A DNA stretch of 64,000 nucleotides from Vagococcus hydrophili (GTDB lineage: Bacteria > Bacillota > Bacilli > Lactobacillales > Vagococcaceae): positions 868,001 through 932,000 of the forward strand of contig NZ_CP049887.1 of NCBI RefSeq assembly GCF_011304195.1, in the 5' to 3' direction. The position numbers were made by a program, and so were the translations under genes. The notes beneath the pieces are model-generated. The model was not told the origin of the DNA and did no database searches. It saw nothing but the letters and a program-made list of their open reading frames with translations. Positions 5,307 to 42,509 of the stretch are shown here, piece by piece (within the stretch, counting starts at the first letter, position 1; each line of letters begins with the position of its first letter).

Positions 5307-7727
5307 TTATATGAAGTGTTGGGGTTCCATGTCAATGGTAATTCGCAAGCCATTGCGCATTTCTTTTTGTGATTCTTCTAAAATCACTTTCAGTCCCTTA
5401 CTTAATTCTGGTTCATTTTTATATTTAATCACTGTTTGATAATAATAGCGTTTATTCATTCTGGCAACTGATTTAGGCGTTGGACCTAACATAATCGCAT
5501 TTGGGGATAAAAATCCTTTTAAAAAGTGAACGATTTCAAACATTTTTTTCGCTGCTAAATGTTCCTCTTCATGACTCACCACTAATTGAGTTGTAAAATA
5601 AAAAGGTGGATAATTTCCGCGATGACGCAATTTTAATTCATGTTGGTAAAATGGTTCATACTCTTGATTTTTAGCTAGTTGAATCGCGTAATGATCTGGA
5701 TTAAAGGTTTGAATCACAACTTCTCCTGATTTATCCCCACGGCCAGCACGACCACTCACTTGAGTTAACAATTGGAAGGTTTTTTCACTAGCTCTAAAAT
5801 CAGGCAAGTTAAGAGCGGTATCTGCATTTAACACTCCTACTAAGGTAACATTAGGAAAATCCAATCCTTTGGCTATCATTTGCGTTCCAAGTAAAATATC
5901 CGCATCTCCTGCGCCAAATTGTTTTAATAATTTTTCATGGGCCCCTTTTTTACGAGTGGTGTCCACATCCATCCGAATCACACGAGCATCTGGTAACAAT
6001 TCTTTCAGCTCTTCTTCTATCTTTTGCGTTCCTGTGCCGTAATAACGAATTTTATCTCCATCACAGATGGGACAACGATAAGGAATTCGCTCTTCATGAC
6101 CACAATAATGGCACTTCATTTGCTTCGTGTCCATATGCAGCGTCAAGGAAATGTCACAATTCGGGCAAGGTAACACATACCCGCAATCCCGACACATTAC
6201 AAAGGATGAGTAGCCTCGTCTATTTAGCATTAAAACGGATTGCTCTTTTTTCTCCATACGTTCTTTTAATTTTTCCAACAACTGATTAGAAAAACTGGTA
6301 GATAACGCATTTTTCATTTCTAATTTCATATCCACAATGTTAATAATTGGTAACGTTGCTTTGGAAACTGCCCGTTCATTTAAAATAAGTAAACGATACA
6401 CGCCTTTTTGAGCTCGCGCGCGAGCTTCTAAAGACGGTGTGGCACTTCCTAGAAGAACTGGACAATGATGATAATTACCGCGCCAAATCGCTAAATATTT
6501 GGCATGATATCTTGGCGTTTCATCTTGTTTATAACTACCTTCATGTTCCTCATCAATCACAATTAAGCCGATATTTTCAAGTGGAGCAAATACAGCAGAA
6601 CGAGCGCCAACAACAACACTGGCTTCTTTTCTTTCGATTTTTCGCCATTCATCATATTTTTCACCTTGGGATAAGCCACTATGAAGAACCGCCACATCAT
6701 CACCAAAACGTTTTTTAAAACGCGTCACCGTTTGTGGTGTTAATGAAATTTCTGGAACCAACATAATCGCTGTTTGTCCTTTAGCTAGACAGTGGGCTAT
6801 CGCTTGTAAGTAAACCTCTGTTTTCCCACTACCAGTCACACCTTCCAAAAGAAAGACATCTGATTTTGAAGCGTCCATGGATTCTTTCATAGTATCAAGG
6901 GCTTCTTGTTGTTCACTATTTAAAACTAAAGGTTCATCTTTTTTAAATTGATGAAGGGCATAAGGATCACGGTACACTTCTCGTTCTTCAATAGTTAACC
7001 AACCAAGTTTTTTTCCATCATTAATCGCACTGTTGGAAATATCATGAGTCTCCATAACTTCTTTAATTCCATGCTCGGCTTCATCTATCTCAAGTAAAAA
7101 TGATAATAGTCGCCATTTTTGAACTGCATTTTTCCTTAGATTTTCACGTTCAGCTTGTAATTGTTCGTTAGTCATTACTTTCTTTAAAACGCGTTTTGTT
7201 TTCACCTTATTTTTAGTCGTTACTTCATAACGAATATCCACATGTCCCGTCTTTTTTAAGCGTAACAATTCGGCAAAATGAGGGGATTCCTGAGCTTGTT
7301 CCCACTCAATCTCTGCCAAACCTAAAAAGAGTTCTTCTTCAATAATTTTAGGTAGTGCCTTATCTGTTTGTGTCACGTATTTCGTATAAGAAGACTTCAT
7401 AACACTTGGTAGCATGGTTTGAAGACACGTTATTTTGTATGAATACGTTGTTTCCTTCATCTCATCTGCTAAGGCTAGTAATTCATGGGTTAAAACAGGA
7501 TGTAAGTCTAAAACACCGATAATTGCTTTTAACTCAACTTCTGTTTCCAAGGTCTCTCTCAACCCCACAATAAAACCTTGAATATGCCGATTCCCATTGC
7601 CAAAAGGCACCTCAACACGCAGCCCAACTTCCACCACATCGACCAAGTGATCGGGAACTTCATAACTGAAAGGCTGATCCGTCTGCATAGCGGGCACATC
7701 CACAATAATATCTGCTATCCACGTCAT
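5307..7727 (-). CDS. priA: Primosomal protein N', replication restart helicase
   Basis: 3'-5' DNA helicase that reloads the replisome at stalled forks. An N-terminal DNA-binding domain is followed by a superfamily 2 helicase: Walker A GVTGSGKTE, Walker B DEEH, and GSATPSLEAR. Eight cysteines in four CxxC pairs (CRDC, CPNC, CHYC, CPIC) form the zinc-binding insert. The C-terminal helicase lobe contains QVSGRAGRG. At 806 aa it is full length. It appears to head the priA-def-fmt-rsmB-prpC-prkC operon. Confidence 0.97.
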   Translation of the reverse strand: MTWIADIIVDVPAMQTDQPFSYEVPDHLVDVVEVGLRVEVPFGNGNRHIQGFIVGLRETLETEVELKAIIGVLDLHPVLTHELLALADEMKETTYSYKITCLQTMLPSVMKSSYTKYVTQTDKALPKIIEEELFLGLAEIEWEQAQESPHFAELLRLKKTGHVDIRYEVTTKNKVKTKRVLKKVMTNEQLQAERENLRKNAVQKWRLLSFLLEIDEAEHGIKEVMETHDISNSAINDGKKLGWLTIEEREVYRDPYALHQFKKDEPLVLNSEQQEALDTMKESMDASKSDVFLLEGVTGSGKTEVYLQAIAHCLAKGQTAIMLVPEISLTPQTVTRFKKRFGDDVAVLHSGLSQGEKYDEWRKIERKEASVVVGARSAVFAPLENIGLIVIDEEHEGSYKQDETPRYHAKYLAIWRGNYHHCPVLLGSATPSLEARARAQKGVYRLLILNERAVSKATLPIINIVDMKLEMKNALSTSFSNQLLEKLKERMEKKEQSVLMLNRRGYSSFVMCRDCGYVLPCPNCDISLTLHMDTKQMKCHYCGHEERIPYRCPICDGDKIRYYGTGTQKIEEELKELLPDARVIRMDVDTTRKKGAHEKLLKQFGAGDADILLGTQMIAKGLDFPNVTLVGVLNADTALNLPDFRASEKTFQLLTQVSGRAGRGDKSGEVVIQTFNPDHYAIQLAKNQEYEPFYQHELKLRHRGNYPPFYFTTQLVVSHEEEHLAAKKMFEIVHFLKGFLSPNAIMLGPTPKSVARMNKRYYYQTVIKYKNEPELSKGLKVILEESQKEMRNGLRITIDMEPQHFI

Positions 7728-36515: not shown

Positions 36516-36617
36516 CTATTTGGAATATTGTTTTTTTAAAAATTTATAAATTACTAGGCACACTCCCACTACTAAAAATAAAGAGCATATAGTAAATACA
36601 ATCCCTGTCCATCCCAT
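36516..36617 (-). CDS. 33 aa single-helix membrane peptide
   Basis: Starts MGWTGIVFTICSLFL, one hydrophobic helix, then the basic end KFLKKQYSK. AGGAGG is 7 nt before the ATG, an ideal ribosome binding site, which is the main reason to call it. It lies 21 nt after the 185 aa secreted-protein gene and in the same operon. Candidates are an immunity peptide, a membrane-active toxin or a small regulator; nothing in the sequence decides. Confidence 0.6.
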   Translation of the reverse strand: MGWTGIVFTICSLFLVVGVCLVIYKFLKKQYSK

Positions 36618-36638
36618 TATAATTCCTCCTCTTATAAT

Positions 36639-37196
36639 TTATTTGACGGTTGTGACTAGTTTATTAGAACCATTAATAGTAGCTCTCAACCACCCATTCC
36701 AACCTCCAAAATCCCAAACAGGTGATCCAAATTCAAAATAGTACGTTGCCCTCTTATTACTCTCTCTTCTTAGACTTGATGATTTAACTGATACACCCCA
36801 ATGACTATATGTACCATCATATGCGGAAGTAATATTATTCCCTGAAACTCTTATTCTAAATGAACAATTAAAAATACCAGCATAATAATAAATCTTATAT
36901 GTTCCATTAGATACTCGTGACATTGGATTAAATTCAGGTTCTATGGTTATTATAGCTTCAGTTCCATCTTCAGCTATAATTTTTTTAGTTTGAATACCTG
37001 TTTCTTTTAGATCAAACTCAACTTCCTTTAATATATGAAATTCGTCTATTGCATCTAATTGTTGAGAATCCGAATATTCTGATTCAGAAGAACTCAATTC
37101 GTTTGCAAATACAGTAGCGGTTGACAATACAGTTGTCCCTAAAGTAATACCACTCATTAATACTAAGCATGTTTTAAATAACTTATTTTTCATCAT
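36639..37196 (-). CDS. Secreted protein, DUF5626-like C-terminal domain
   Basis: 185 aa with a Sec signal peptide (MMKNKLFKTCLVLMSGITLG..., cleavage near VFA|NE). A Ser/Glu-rich linker is followed by a beta-rich domain (about 95-185: GTYKIYYYAGIFNCSFRIRV, ITSAYDGTYSHWGVSV, WDFGGWNGWLRA). This resembles DUF5626-type secreted domains of Lactobacillales; I am moderately sure. It is second in a minus-strand operon after the 91 aa secreted peptide (18 nt gap). The second ATG (37193) has better spacing to AGAGG. Confidence 0.7.
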   Translation of the reverse strand: MMKNKLFKTCLVLMSGITLGTTVLSTATVFANELSSSESEYSDSQQLDAIDEFHILKEVEFDLKETGIQTKKIIAEDGTEAIITIEPEFNPMSRVSNGTYKIYYYAGIFNCSFRIRVSGNNITSAYDGTYSHWGVSVKSSSLRRESNKRATYYFEFGSPVWDFGGWNGWLRATINGSNKLVTTVK

Positions 37197-37214
37197 AATC
37201 CCTCTTTTCTTTTT

Positions 37215-37490
37215 TTAACGATAGTATCCAATCCATAAACCTTGATGATTTCTAACATGATGTACTTTAGTACCACCTCTATATTTGTATGGAGGTACAT
37301 TTTTGAAAACAGCCGTAAATCGATAGTATTTTCCGTTAATGGTTCCTCTAGTTTGTTCTATATTAACTGATTGTAACGCCTCGATAGCAATATCAGGTTT
37401 AAGTGTTACCTCCTCAGCATGTGCGATTGAGCTACCCAATGTACTTAATAAAACCGTACTGCAAAACATACTTACAATAATCTTTTTCAT
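37215..37490 (-). CDS. Secreted small protein with C-terminal IGYY motif
   Basis: 91 aa with signal peptide MKKIIVSMFCSTVLLSTLGS... cleaved near AHA|EE. The mature ~65 residues end PPYKYRGG...LWIGYYR. The 74 aa protein at 39756 ends PPKVYKGW...GYIGYYV, so the two are distant paralogues that flank the two-component system. AAGGAAGG precedes the ATG. The promoter has LytTR-type repeats (37516-37593). Likely an exported signal peptide or bacteriocin-like product; inferred from context only. Confidence 0.7.
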   Translation of the reverse strand: MKKIIVSMFCSTVLLSTLGSSIAHAEEVTLKPDIAIEALQSVNIEQTRGTINGKYYRFTAVFKNVPPYKYRGGTKVHHVRNHQGLWIGYYR

Positions 37491-37515
37491 TATCGATACC
37501 TTCCTTCTTTTATTT

Positions 37516-37593
37516 GATATACATATGATAAAATATAAACATAAAGAAAAACCATTTCCACCCTAAACTCTACAAACTTGCACTGGAACGTTC
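37516..37593 (-). promoter_or_regulatory. LytTR-type direct repeats and promoter of the 91 aa secreted peptide operon
   Basis: On the minus strand, CGTTCCAGT and AGTTTAGGGT start 21 bp apart (GTT at 37589 and 37568). The -10 TGTATATC is at 37516-37523, 47 nt after the second GTT. The plus-strand promoter at 39661-39734 has the same layout, with GTTTAGGGA and TATAAC 46 nt downstream. AgrA/ComE-type regulators bind such 21-bp-phased repeats. Confidence 0.6.
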
Positions 37594-37634
37594 AAAAATT
37601 AAAAAGAAAAAACGTTCAGGATTACCGGAACGTT
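37587..37634. promoter_or_regulatory. Three AACGTT palindromes between the divergent operons
   Basis: AACGTT occurs at 37587, 37611 and 37629, in the short region between the divergent peptide operon and the histidine kinase. The second and third form a hairpin (AACGTTC...GAACGTT) followed on the minus strand by a T-run, so they may be a leader terminator or regulator sites. Confidence 0.45.
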
Positions 37635-37649
37635 TTGGAGGTGATAGTT

Positions 37650-38936
37650 ATCGTCCTATATACATTATTTTCCCATTTATTAAATATCGCTTTTTCTTAC
37701 TTAATTATTAATAAATCTATTTTGAAGAATACAAAAGTTATCTTTTTACTATTCCTGATGATTAGCTCCGCTGGACTTATCTCTGATATATATCCTTTTG
37801 TGAATGATTTATTTTTATTTTTATTCCTTTTTTTATTAACTACAAAAGCACAAAAAAAACAAGATATTTTTTTATCTACTTTAATTGTAGTGTCGCCTTT
37901 CTTAATAATTAATGTCCTATCATTTATGAATTCTAAATTTATACTATTGCTACTAAATTTTAATATAAATATGACTTCAATAATTATTATATCAGAGCTA
38001 ATAATGTACATAGCTATTTTTATTATTAGTTCCATTGTCCGTAAGCAACTTATTCCATTTATTCAAGGAAAAAAATATGAAAAAATAGCATCAACTATTC
38101 TTATCGGATGTTATATATTGCTTCAATCACTAGAAATTTATCTTAACTACTTCGGAGATGAATGGTTAAGCGTTGTAAGTATTGTCATTATATTAGCCTT
38201 CTCAATCTTAATTTATTATGTCATTCATTCGATTTCGACCAGTCAAGAACTAAAATTAGAAGTTGAAAAACAAAAAATTGAATTGAATTATATGAATGAA
38301 TACGCTAAAGAAACAACTAAGCAATACAATGAAATAAGGAAGTTTAGACATGACTATATTAATATCCTGTCATCTTTAGATTATTTTATTCAATTAAATG
38401 ATTTAGAAAAATTATCCGCTTATTATGAAAAAACTATTAAACCAACCCAGAAATATTTATCTGAAGGAATTTTTAATTTTCAGGAGTTAAAAAATATTGA
38501 AGCAGATGATATTAAAAGTATTATTGCTATCAAATTATTATCTGCTAAGGAAAAAGAAGTTGAAGTACAAATAGAAGTTCCAGACATTATTCCCAAAATT
38601 CTACCTGTTAACTCAGTTGTATTAATCAGAATGCTCGGAATTATTTTAGATAATAGTATTGAAGAAGTTGCGGATATAAAAAAAGGAAAAATTGAAGTAG
38701 GTCTATTCGATATGGAAAATCATTATTTATTTATTATTAAAAATCCAATAAAAAAAGATATCCTTCCATTACATCAATTAGAAATCCAAGGATATTCAAC
38801 CAAAGGAACTAACAGAGGACTAGGTCTTTCAAATCTTAATGAATTAAGTAACAGAGAAAAACAGTTAATGCTTGAAACAGAAATTACATCAACAGCCTTT
38901 ATTCAAAAAATAACCCTAACAAAGGAGGTCAATTAA
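37650..38936 (+). CDS. AgrC/ComD-like sensor histidine kinase, start codon uncertain (ATC)
   Basis: Membrane sensor of the HPK10 class. Six or seven hydrophobic segments fill the first ~190 residues, then a coiled coil, the H-box EIRKFRHDYINIL, and a GHKL ATPase with LDNSIEE (N box) and GLGLSNL (G box). This class senses secreted peptides. GGAGG at 37637-37641 is followed 8 nt later by ATC at 37650. The in-frame alternatives are GTG 37641, which overlaps the ribosome binding site, and TTG 37578, which has none. About 428 aa. The regulator gene begins directly after the stop. Confidence 0.88.
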   Translation: MVLYTLFSHLLNIAFSYLIINKSILKNTKVIFLLFLMISSAGLISDIYPFVNDLFLFLFLFLLTTKAQKKQDIFLSTLIVVSPFLIINVLSFMNSKFILLLLNFNINMTSIIIISELIMYIAIFIISSIVRKQLIPFIQGKKYEKIASTILIGCYILLQSLEIYLNYFGDEWLSVVSIVIILAFSILIYYVIHSISTSQELKLEVEKQKIELNYMNEYAKETTKQYNEIRKFRHDYINILSSLDYFIQLNDLEKLSAYYEKTIKPTQKYLSEGIFNFQELKNIEADDIKSIIAIKLLSAKEKEVEVQIEVPDIIPKILPVNSVVLIRMLGIILDNSIEEVADIKKGKIEVGLFDMENHYLFIIKNPIKKDILPLHQLEIQGYSTKGTNRGLGLSNLNELSNREKQLMLETEITSTAFIQKITLTKEVN

Positions 38937-39659
38937 ATGTTACCAATATTTATTTGCGAGAATGATCCCGTTCAAAAGAAACGTTTTGAAGATATTATAA
39001 AAAAATTCATTATGATTGAAGATTATGATATGAAAATTGAATTATCTACTAATAATCCATATGAGATTTTATCTTATTTGGATAACCATGAAAATATCAG
39101 AGGAGCTTATTTTTTAGACATTGACCTAGGAAAAGAAATAAATGGCATTCAACTTGGATCTAAAATCAGAAAAAAAGATGTATTTGGTCGGATTATTTTT
39201 GTGACTACTCATAGTGAATTAATGTCCCTAACTTTTACTTACAAAGTAGAGGCCATGGATTATATTGTAAAAGACAATCCAGAAAAAATACAACGAAAAA
39301 TTCAGGACTGTTTAAAGCGAATAAATGACCACTATACATCAGAAACAATTCAAGAAAAAGACCGGATTAAATTGAAAATAAATAATCAAATCAGAGTTTT
39401 TCCTTTAGAAGAGGTTCTGTTTTTTGAAACAACAGAACTATCTCATAAAATAAAATTACATCTAATCAATAATAGAATAGAATTTTACGGAAACTTAGGC
39501 GAATTAGAGACTTTATCTAATAAATTCGTTCGTATTCATAAATCGTATTTAATTAATGAGGATAATATCATGACAGTCGATCCAAAAAAGAGAGAAGTCA
39601 TTATGGTCAATGGAGAATCCTGCCTCGTCTCTGTTAGAAAAATGAAATTACTGAAATAA
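38937..39659 (+). CDS. LytTR-family response regulator, AgrA-like
   Basis: Receiver domain (residues 1-125) with ENDP acidic pocket, phosphorylation Asp in YFLDIDLG and VTTHSELM, then a LytTR DNA-binding domain (140-240: EVLFFETTELSHKI and FVRIHKSYLIN). 240 aa. The ATG overlaps or touches the kinase stop and has GGAGG upstream. Expected targets are the 21-bp-phased repeats in the promoters of the two secreted peptide genes. Confidence 0.92.
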   Translation: MLPIFICENDPVQKKRFEDIIKKFIMIEDYDMKIELSTNNPYEILSYLDNHENIRGAYFLDIDLGKEINGIQLGSKIRKKDVFGRIIFVTTHSELMSLTFTYKVEAMDYIVKDNPEKIQRKIQDCLKRINDHYTSETIQEKDRIKLKINNQIRVFPLEEVLFFETTELSHKIKLHLINNRIEFYGNLGELETLSNKFVRIHKSYLINEDNIMTVDPKKREVIMVNGESCLVSVRKMKLLK

Positions 39660-39660
39660 A

Positions 39661-39734
39661 CGTTAAGGGATAATTTTATGTCGTTTAGGGAATTTTTAAT
39701 AAATAATTGATTTTTCTGTTACTCTGTATATAAC
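39661..39734 (+). promoter_or_regulatory. LytTR-type direct repeats and promoter of the 74 aa secreted peptide
   Basis: CGTTAAGGGA at 39661 and CGTTTAGGGA at 39682 are near-identical direct repeats exactly 21 bp apart, very close to the AgrA consensus core GTTAAG. There is no good -35; the -10 TATATAAC is at 39727-39734, and GAGGAGG at 39742-39748 precedes the ATG. This is the layout of regulator-dependent bacteriocin and agr promoters. Confidence 0.75.
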
Positions 39735-39755
39735 ATTAATTGAGGAGGTTTTTAC

Positions 39756-39980
39756 ATGAAAAAATTCATTATTTATTTAGGTTTACTTGCACTAGCTTTT
39801 TCACTGAGAGGAACACTTGTTACTGCAGAAACAACAGTACATGAACACTTATTAGATTTAACAACAAGAGCACAAGTAAGAGCTTATAAATTTAGTTCAA
39901 GACCTCCTAAAGTTTATAAAGGGTGGAATTTAGTGCAAGAGAAAAAAGTAAAAGATGGATACATTGGATATTATGTCTAA
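39756..39980 (+). CDS. Secreted small protein with C-terminal IGYY motif
   Basis: 74 aa. Signal peptide MKKFIIYLGLLALAFS... cleaved near VTA|ET, leaving ~50 mature residues, basic, with RPPKVYKGW and the end DGYIGYYV. No cysteine and no double-glycine leader, so export is by Sec. It is the distant paralogue of the 91 aa protein at 37215. It directly follows the response regulator and has its own regulated promoter. Peptide signal or bacteriocin-like role inferred. Confidence 0.75.
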   Translation: MKKFIIYLGLLALAFSLRGTLVTAETTVHEHLLDLTTRAQVRAYKFSSRPPKVYKGWNLVQEKKVKDGYIGYYV

Positions 39981-40175
39981 GCTCTTTACTGATAAAATTT
40001 TAAGTTTCTTGTTAACTATTGGTTGTTTCTTGTTAACTATTGGTTGTATCTTGTTGTTGTGGCTTTCTTTTCTTATGTAGACATTTTCCCAAAAATTTCT
40101 CCTGTTTTCTTTTTTATCATAACGTTTATTGTGATTACCTGTTTAATATTTGTTTTGTTTAAAGAAGAAAACTAA
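39973..40175 (+). pseudogene. Two-helix small membrane protein, frameshifted, with a 21-bp tandem duplication
   Basis: ATG 39973 overlaps the stop of the 74 aa gene. Frame 1 reads MSKLFTDKILSFLLTIGCFL... and stops at 40080 (35 aa). Another frame continues PKISPVFFFIITFIV... to KEEN and TAA at 40175. A one-base change in the T-rich stretch near 40066-40075 would join them to a ~65 aa protein with two membrane helices. A 21-bp unit is duplicated at about 40008-40049, repeating FLLTIGC in frame. By position it could be an immunity protein. Confidence 0.55.
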
Positions 40176-40191
40176 ACATCATTATATTTAA

Positions 40192-40242
40192 TTCACAGTA
40201 AAAAAGCTTTCATAATCGAATTGAAAGTTTTTTTACTGTGAA
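40192..40242. terminator. Terminator closing the two-component/peptide locus
   Basis: Long stem TTCACAGTAAAAAAGCTTTC / GAAAGTTTTTTTACTGTGAA with an 11-nt loop; T-rich on both strands. Confidence 0.85.
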
Positions 40243-42017: not shown

Positions 42018-42509
42018 TTATCTTATACTCATAATATCCATCATAAAATCACCGATGTCTTTTTTATCTTTACCGAAAGTCGATGGTACATATGCTCTTT
42101 TATCATTAGATGTTATTTTGTAATTCACATCATAACTGGTATAAATTCCTACGGAGCCATGATGATCGTATAAATAGGTTATTGCTAGATCTAAATCATT
42201 GATATCATTAGTTCTATAATATTTATCGAAATTTTCTTTAGCCAGTTTTAAAAAGTAATATTGATAAGAATTATCTACAACCTCATCTCCATAAATTTCT
42301 CTCATAAAATCTTGGACTTCAAAATAATCTGGAATCATATCGTAAAAATAATAAGAACGTTGTTTCATATCACTAAAAGTACTAACATTTAAATCATTGC
42401 TATTTGTTAATGCTTTTGTTTCTACCTCCAAATCGGTTGAAGCTAATACTGTACCTGGTAAATTGAAAATAAAAATTACACATAAAACCGTTAACATTTT
42501 TCGTTTCAT
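42018..42509 (-). CDS. Secreted hypothetical protein
   Basis: 163 aa with signal peptide MKRKMLTVLCVIFIFNLPG..., cleaved near VLA|ST. The mature part is acidic and Tyr/Asp-rich (YYFYDMIPDYFEVQDFM, DLDLAITYLYDHHGS) with no cysteine. Not recognised. Single gene with its own terminator. Confidence 0.65.
   Translation of the reverse strand: MKRKMLTVLCVIFIFNLPGTVLASTDLEVETKALTNSNDLNVSTFSDMKQRSYYFYDMIPDYFEVQDFMREIYGDEVVDNSYQYYFLKLAKENFDKYYRTNDINDLDLAITYLYDHHGSVGIYTSYDVNYKITSNDKRAYVPSTFGKDKKDIGDFMMDIMSIR

Follow-up and report, generated by a model that had tools for sequence, protein, structure and literature searches.

Which signal does an AgrC-like sensor kinase of Vagococcus hydrophili perceive? 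The kinase is encoded in a 64,000-nucleotide stretch (contig NZ_CP049887.1, positions 868,001 to 932,000; hereafter the window, numbered from its first letter), which is part of a 3.05-Mb single-contig genome. There, the kinase and an AgrA-like response regulator are flanked on both sides by small proteins with apparent Sec signal peptides, as judged by eye. An earlier note on this DNA had proposed these Sec-exported proteins or their fragments as the natural candidates for cognate partners of the kinase, and that reading is supported by the evidence below, namely a kinase/regulator pair beside most newly found relatives of the proteins and 21-bp repeats before both of their genes. We think it probable that the AgrC-like kinase senses the peptide as its exported signal and that the locus is an agr-type quorum-sensing module with a Sec-exported peptide. 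All genes lay where the earlier note had placed them, and the features that carry the argument (lengths in amino acids, aa) are these:

37215..37490, minus strand: 91-aa Sec-type precursor, a divergent paralogue of the peptide family by family alignment
37562..37592, minus strand: LytTR-type direct repeat before the 91-aa gene, with 21-bp period (matrix rank 2; first half at -102)
37650..38936, plus strand: AgrC-like HPK10 sensor kinase (NCBIfam AgrC, GHKL domain, relatives in genomes G009 and G005)
38937..39659, plus strand: AgrA-like response regulator whose DNA-binding domain is LytTR (matches to NCBIfam AgrA and to Pfam Response_reg and LytTR)
39659..39689, plus strand: LytTR-type direct repeat before the 74-aa gene, with 21-bp period (matrix rank 1; first half at -97)
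39756..39980, plus strand: 74-aa Sec-type precursor, the proposed signal (family alignment; predicted beta-sheet tail)

The kinase matched NCBIfam AgrC over residues 43-445 (E=1.3e-52; 179 bits, the curated cut-off of 500 not being reached) and Pfam GHKL (E=6.8e-14), while the regulator matched NCBIfam AgrA (E=6.2e-70; 235 bits, the curated cut-off of 400 not being reached), Pfam LytTR (E=2.9e-18) and the Response_reg domain. The pair is an AgrC-like GHKL/HPK10 membrane kinase with an AgrA-like LytTR regulator, as in agr-type systems. The codon at 37650, after GGAGGTGATAGTT (37635-37655), is ATC and aligned with ATG in two close relatives; it is likely the kinase start codon, with GTG at 37641 or TTG at 37635 as possible alternatives. 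The window genome gave five LytTR matches in all. A second AgrC/AgrA-like pair lies at about 1.19 Mb of this genome (G000; stretch L114, 3736-7090), followed by small membrane proteins and by a protein resembling a CPBP-type protease.

The peptide family and its linkage to kinase/regulator pairs

The kinase search of 395 Lactobacillales genomes gave matches in 131 at E<=1e-30, and 40 stretches around kinases were examined. The C-terminal tail pattern recovered nine homologous small proteins in eight of these stretches: two in V. silagei and the others in V. fluvialis, Enterococcus sp. CU12B, E. aquimarinus, Candidatus Tetragenococcus pullicola and three further genomes. Together with the 74-aa and 91-aa proteins they form an alignment of the tail in which F, P-P, Y, G, G and Y are invariant (n=11); over all 29 members known at the end of the work, window included and all from Lactobacillales, F, G and the last Y are invariant. 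On this alignment the 74-aa and 91-aa proteins are one family, and the tail pattern remarked on in the earlier note is not a chance likeness, since related kinases in other genera have homologues with this tail next to them. The 11 members tested, the 74-aa and 91-aa proteins among them, fall under no sequence family of Pfam, NCBIfam or PDB.

The precursors as called measure 70-94 aa (n=29) and begin with a charged start and a hydrophobic stretch, which by eye is a Sec-type signal peptide. R-(A/G/S/T/M) occurs 4-15 residues ahead of the core F in 22 of the 29, no Cys is conserved across the 29 members, and the last 38 residues carry a mean net charge of +5.5 (n=29). AlphaFold2, run on eight sequences, predicted a three-stranded beta-sheet for residues 41-74 of the 74-aa protein, with blocks of predicted local distance difference test (pLDDT) score at 92-94; for the model overall, mean pLDDT was 75.5 and the predicted template-modelling score (pTM) 0.47. 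Comparison of the predicted tail with solved folds gave no convincing match. Cationic, predicted beta-structured tails also speak for another explanation, in which the peptides are Sec-dependent bacteriocins or other effectors, the two-component system senses some other signal such as envelope damage or a foreign peptide, and the two-helix proteins encoded beside some peptides confer immunity. We regard this explanation, the main rival, as rather unlikely, though deserving of real weight, and return to it as the evidence bears on it.

For linkage, only matches found after the first 11 tails were counted, because those 11 had been found by looking beside kinases. A profile of the 11 tails searched against the 395 genomes matched 21 times, in 16 genomes, and 10 of these matches were new. 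Seven of the 10 lie 0.3-1.0 kb from a listed kinase (one, in E. aquimarinus, with an in-frame stop), and another (G318:C10:73013) is accompanied by a kinase and regulator of its own in stretch L108. The match in genome G216, a 27-aa frame with no pair beside it, is probably spurious. A profile of 17 tails searched against 105 Enterococcaceae genomes, which overlap partly with the 395, gave 21 matches in 18 genomes; kinase and regulator adjoin 10 of the 11 new ones, and the eleventh is at a contig end, where the adjoining 29-aa frame resembles a kinase start by eye. In total, 18 of the 21 new matches adjoin an AgrC/AgrA-like pair, a contig end truncates one, and two are without a pair. The possibility that proteins with the IGYY tail occur broadly without such a kinase, which would have told against the cognate-partner reading, is not what these matches show. 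Further profile searches found the peptide in two of 76 genomes (family f5), both already known members, only in the window's genome among 149 of the phylum, and in known members plus one weak match (E=0.009) among 299 of the class. Judged from these matches, the same arrangement recurs in related enterococci and vagococci.

Exclusion of AgrB and the kinase tree

The earlier note had seen no agrB at the locus; this holds for the whole 3.05-Mb genome, in which AgrB (PF04647) had no match anywhere. The same search on the 395 genomes did recover AgrB, no more than 4 kb away from 76 of the 150 listed kinases; in 14 named control genomes nothing passed the cut-off. Among these 150 kinases, the peptide was found within 4 kb of 17, AgrB of 76, neither of 57 and both of none, a count that leaves out 17 AgrB rows of E 2.9e-5 or worse (Fisher P=2e-6 for the exclusion, the rows being related by descent). 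AgrB matched in 14 of 25 chosen genomes; of the 14 peptide-bearing genomes among the 25, 10 gave no AgrB match, 3 have AgrB elsewhere in the genome, and in G208 the match is marginal and lies in a 398-aa frame. All AgrB counts are for genomes met before the 17-tail search of Enterococcaceae. Such exclusion is expected if the peptide is a signal, and less so if it is a toxin.

A tree of 53 kinases contained a group of 16 (support 95/72), made up of 14 peptide-linked kinases and those of G009 and G005 without peptide, and a second peptide-linked group of four rows (support 97/91). The two groups were not joined as one, and no AgrB-linked kinase fell inside either. The kinases of G009 and G005 are the closest to that of the window (57% identical) and nest beside it, which suggests that the peptide was lost in these lineages.

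Direct repeats at 21-bp spacing and the proposed signalling loop

Upstream of both peptide genes of the window, half-sites stand exactly 21 bp apart. A CGTT/GTT pair at spacing 21 occurred in 6 of 17 peptide upstreams, against a shuffle mean of 0.19. We also scanned 29 peptide upstreams free of any motif, taking the best 10-base direct repeat between -115 and -75 at spacings of 12 to 33. On average, 7.48 bases were identical at spacing 21, as compared to 4.7-5.5 for the 21 remaining spacings, and at least 8 of 10 bases were identical in 16/29 upstreams at spacing 21 as compared to at most 3/29 at any other, although a few of the 16, for example V. silagei 2 and G180, may be chance. With a matrix built from seven sites of other species, the window sites ranked 1 and 2 of 127,940 positions, scoring 24.0 (39659..39689) and 22.5 (37562..37592) against 12.9 for the next-best, the matrix being not fully independent, since the window sites had been part of a pattern or matrix by which some of the seven were originally chosen. 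Among 11 upstreams outside the matrix, six scored at p<0.03, one of these at -185, and four more carried near-perfect repeats of another word at -87 to -89; the L139 upstream fell below the matrix score, yet holds a perfect repeat of a third word. Tandem direct repeats that appear to be of the AgrA/LytTR type, a further mark of agr-type systems, are thereby present.

The third-best LytTR-like site of the window (12.9) lies at 37611-37641, just before the kinase, with more AACGTT copies nearby, and may serve self-control of the kinase.

The peptide might instead be a fixed accessory of the kinase, an exported co-sensor or inhibitor and not a diffusible signal. A small folded domain exported beside the kinase could bind it permanently, and linkage and shared regulation would fit equally well; however, the peptide takes the place of AgrB and has repeats of the regulator type ahead of its gene, both of which favour a signal, and we consider an accessory role very improbable.

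A shade less firmly than for the window locus itself, we favour a broader proposal: that these loci form an undescribed agr-derived quorum-sensing branch in Lactobacillales (Vagococcus, Enterococcus and relatives), whose signal would be a Sec-exported folded beta-sheet mini-protein of ~35-45 residues, neither a modified cyclic nor a double-glycine peptide, and some of whose loci would switch on secreted bacteriocin-like proteins. At the window locus, a Sec-exported peptide would replace AgrB/AgrD in an agr-type module. From its sequence, we infer that the 74-aa precursor would be exported by Sec and cleaved by signal peptidase, with a possible second trimming near the common R-(A/G/S/T/M), to give a cationic peptide of that length predicted to fold as a three-stranded sheet. 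The peptide would accumulate outside, where the membrane portion of the AgrC-like kinase would perceive it; the AgrA-like regulator, once phosphorylated, would bind the 21-bp-spaced repeats, raising expression of the peptide itself in a positive loop as well as of the divergent operon for the 91-aa paralogue, the DUF5626 protein and the membrane peptide. The other genes of such loci would be variable, presumed cargo, in two relatives a bacteriocin with an immunity-type protein.

Neighbouring genes and comparison with known systems

The locus is AT-rich (G+C 28%, against 36% for the whole window), and its remaining features are:

36516..36617, minus strand: 33-aa single-helix membrane peptide at the end of the 91-aa operon, an open reading frame (ORF) with a ribosome-binding site
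36639..37196, minus strand: secreted DUF5626 protein of 185 aa (Pfam PF18540, E=8.9e-26, residues 62-182)
39973..40175, plus strand: broken gene of a small two-helix membrane protein, overlapping the 3' end of the 74-aa gene
40192..40242, strand not assigned: probable terminator, an inverted repeat TTCACAGTAAAAAA...TTTTTTACTGTGAA read from the sequence

The gaps in the minus-strand operon are 18 bp between the 91-aa and DUF5626 genes and 21 bp between the latter and the 33-aa gene, whose product had no Pfam or NCBIfam family over cut-off. The secreted protein likened to DUF5626 in the earlier note proved a clear member of that family and is presumed to be cargo of the regulon. The two-helix gene is broken, as had been said: its 35-aa frame from 39973 stops early, a second frame runs to 40175, and a 21-bp tandem repeat occupies 40004-40055 inside it. 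Since the kinase start may be ATC and this gene is broken, the window module may be weakened. The terminator scan did not report the inverted repeat at 40192..40242. Farther along, 42018-42509 encodes a 163-aa secreted protein near XRE-type regulators, with no family match over cut-off.

Across loci the core of kinase, regulator and peptide is conserved and the neighbours differ, a pattern compatible with, though no proof of, a signal whose targets change. L105 holds a lactococcin 972 protein (E=1.2e-11), its gene divergent to the peptide, and an immunity-type membrane protein (E=1.6e-83), and a 100-aa protein of L109 is identical in sequence to this lactococcin 972 protein. V. silagei has two different pairs of secreted proteins beside its peptides (L060, 6650-7592 and 15478-16465; no family over cut-off), the second protein of each pair having a glycine-rich hydrophobic stretch that we take to resemble some bacteriocins. 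In L066, L067, L136-L138 and L140, no recognisable cargo was seen in the ORF lists. When 17 neighbour-gene upstreams, kinases included, were scanned for the repeat, p<=0.01 was reached in two, those of an E. aquimarinus secreted protein (L113, -98) and of the orphan two-helix gene of G009 (-107). Putative sites thus support control of cargo in the window, via the 91-aa operon, as well as in E. aquimarinus, though not at the majority of other loci; with only 2 of 17 scoring, such control does not appear general on the repeat evidence.

These neighbours bear directly on the bacteriocin explanation. A two-helix gene comes after the peptide gene, or overlaps it, in L070, L135, L144 and, as a broken gene, in the window. 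The closest peptide-less kinase/regulator locus, in G009 (L058, 6031-8919), keeps a 58-aa two-helix gene with a LytTR-type repeat and gave no peptide match in the profile search; it resembles an orphan immunity gene, although a listener is also possible. The repeats, moreover, mostly precede peptide genes and not other cargo. On the other side, several loci show kinase, regulator and peptide alone, with no immunity candidate seen in their ORF lists, and L105 and L109 already hold a lactococcin 972 bacteriocin with its immunity-type protein, which leaves another role for the conserved peptide. Dual bacteriocin/inducer peptides are known from lantibiotic systems, and the peptide could likewise be a bacteriocin that doubles as its own inducer. 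The points for the signal and for the bacteriocin both speak for such a dual role, whereas the lack of an immunity candidate in the ORF lists of several loci speaks against it; we hold it improbable.

Several observations weigh against our proposal of the peptide as an exported signal sensed by the kinase. A family-like match in G028:C39 (E=0.04) lies without such a kinase among ABC-transporter genes: stretch L112 encodes there, at 5851-6090, a 79-aa family-like peptide between ABC permease-like and ABC ATPase-like genes (labels by eye), and a search of the stretch found neither a related kinase nor a related regulator. Conversely, the kinases of G009 and G005 (the latter broken) are without peptide, so that kinase and peptide are separable. 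In Ca. Tetragenococcus pullicola (L065, 5576-9594), peptide and kinase are present, no regulator was found in the stretch examined, and the genes downstream of the kinase are presumably transposase-like. No clear repeat precedes the peptide genes of V. silagei (both), G028, V. fluvialis, G350 and G330, and the upstreams of lactococcin 972, of the V. silagei secreted proteins and of other neighbours are without a scoring repeat. Distances between kinase sensors and between peptides correlate over 13 pairs (r=0.38, P=0.004); in the 10-pair core r=0.34, and the correlation vanishes on dropping G030. The two-helix proteins beside some peptides look like immunity proteins, and a folded signal of such size is, to our knowledge, unusual for an AgrC-type receptor.

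If the proposal is right, it would add a new signal class and a new export route to Gram-positive peptide quorum sensing. It would also supply a search rule, the tail motif beside an AgrC/AgrA pair without AgrB, that would find the signals of orphan AgrC-like kinases in enterococci and vagococci and would point to unexplored secreted neighbours, some of them bacteriocins. Agr-like systems have been reviewed (PMC3673130). A literature search, mostly of titles and abstract openings, did not find the peptide family and gene layout described.

Among known products, the beta-rich lactococcin 972 bacteriocins are likewise small Sec-exported proteins, and one adjoins the peptide in L105 and L109; assignment of the peptides to that family was rejected, as the 11 members gave no TIGR01653 or PF09683 match at E<=0.1. 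BLB8/JUQZ-1 bacteriocins (NF053514) matched weakly in 3 of 11 members (best E=0.006), with the match confined to residues 1-49 of the 91-aa protein and 1-32 of the 74-aa protein, and were rejected too, the best score being 16.8 bits against a cut-off of 40. ComCDE, Blp and plantaricin systems are of the three-component type, in which double-glycine peptides regulate bacteriocins. The window locus resembles them in its peptide, HPK10 kinase, LytTR regulator and repeats, and some related loci do so in their bacteriocin-like genes; it differs in that its precursors carry a Sec-type signal instead of a double-glycine leader. By eye, no GG site was seen in the precursors and no ABC exporter among the listed ORFs, in agreement with the earlier note. 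The agr/fsr systems (AgrBDCA) provide the closing comparison. The window genome is unlike them in having no AgrB match, a precursor with an N-terminal Sec-type signal peptide, and a longer tail that is predicted to be folded and has no conserved Cys for a thiolactone. With them it shares the HPK10 GHKL kinase, the AgrA-like LytTR regulator, repeats of 21-bp period and an adjacent candidate signal gene.

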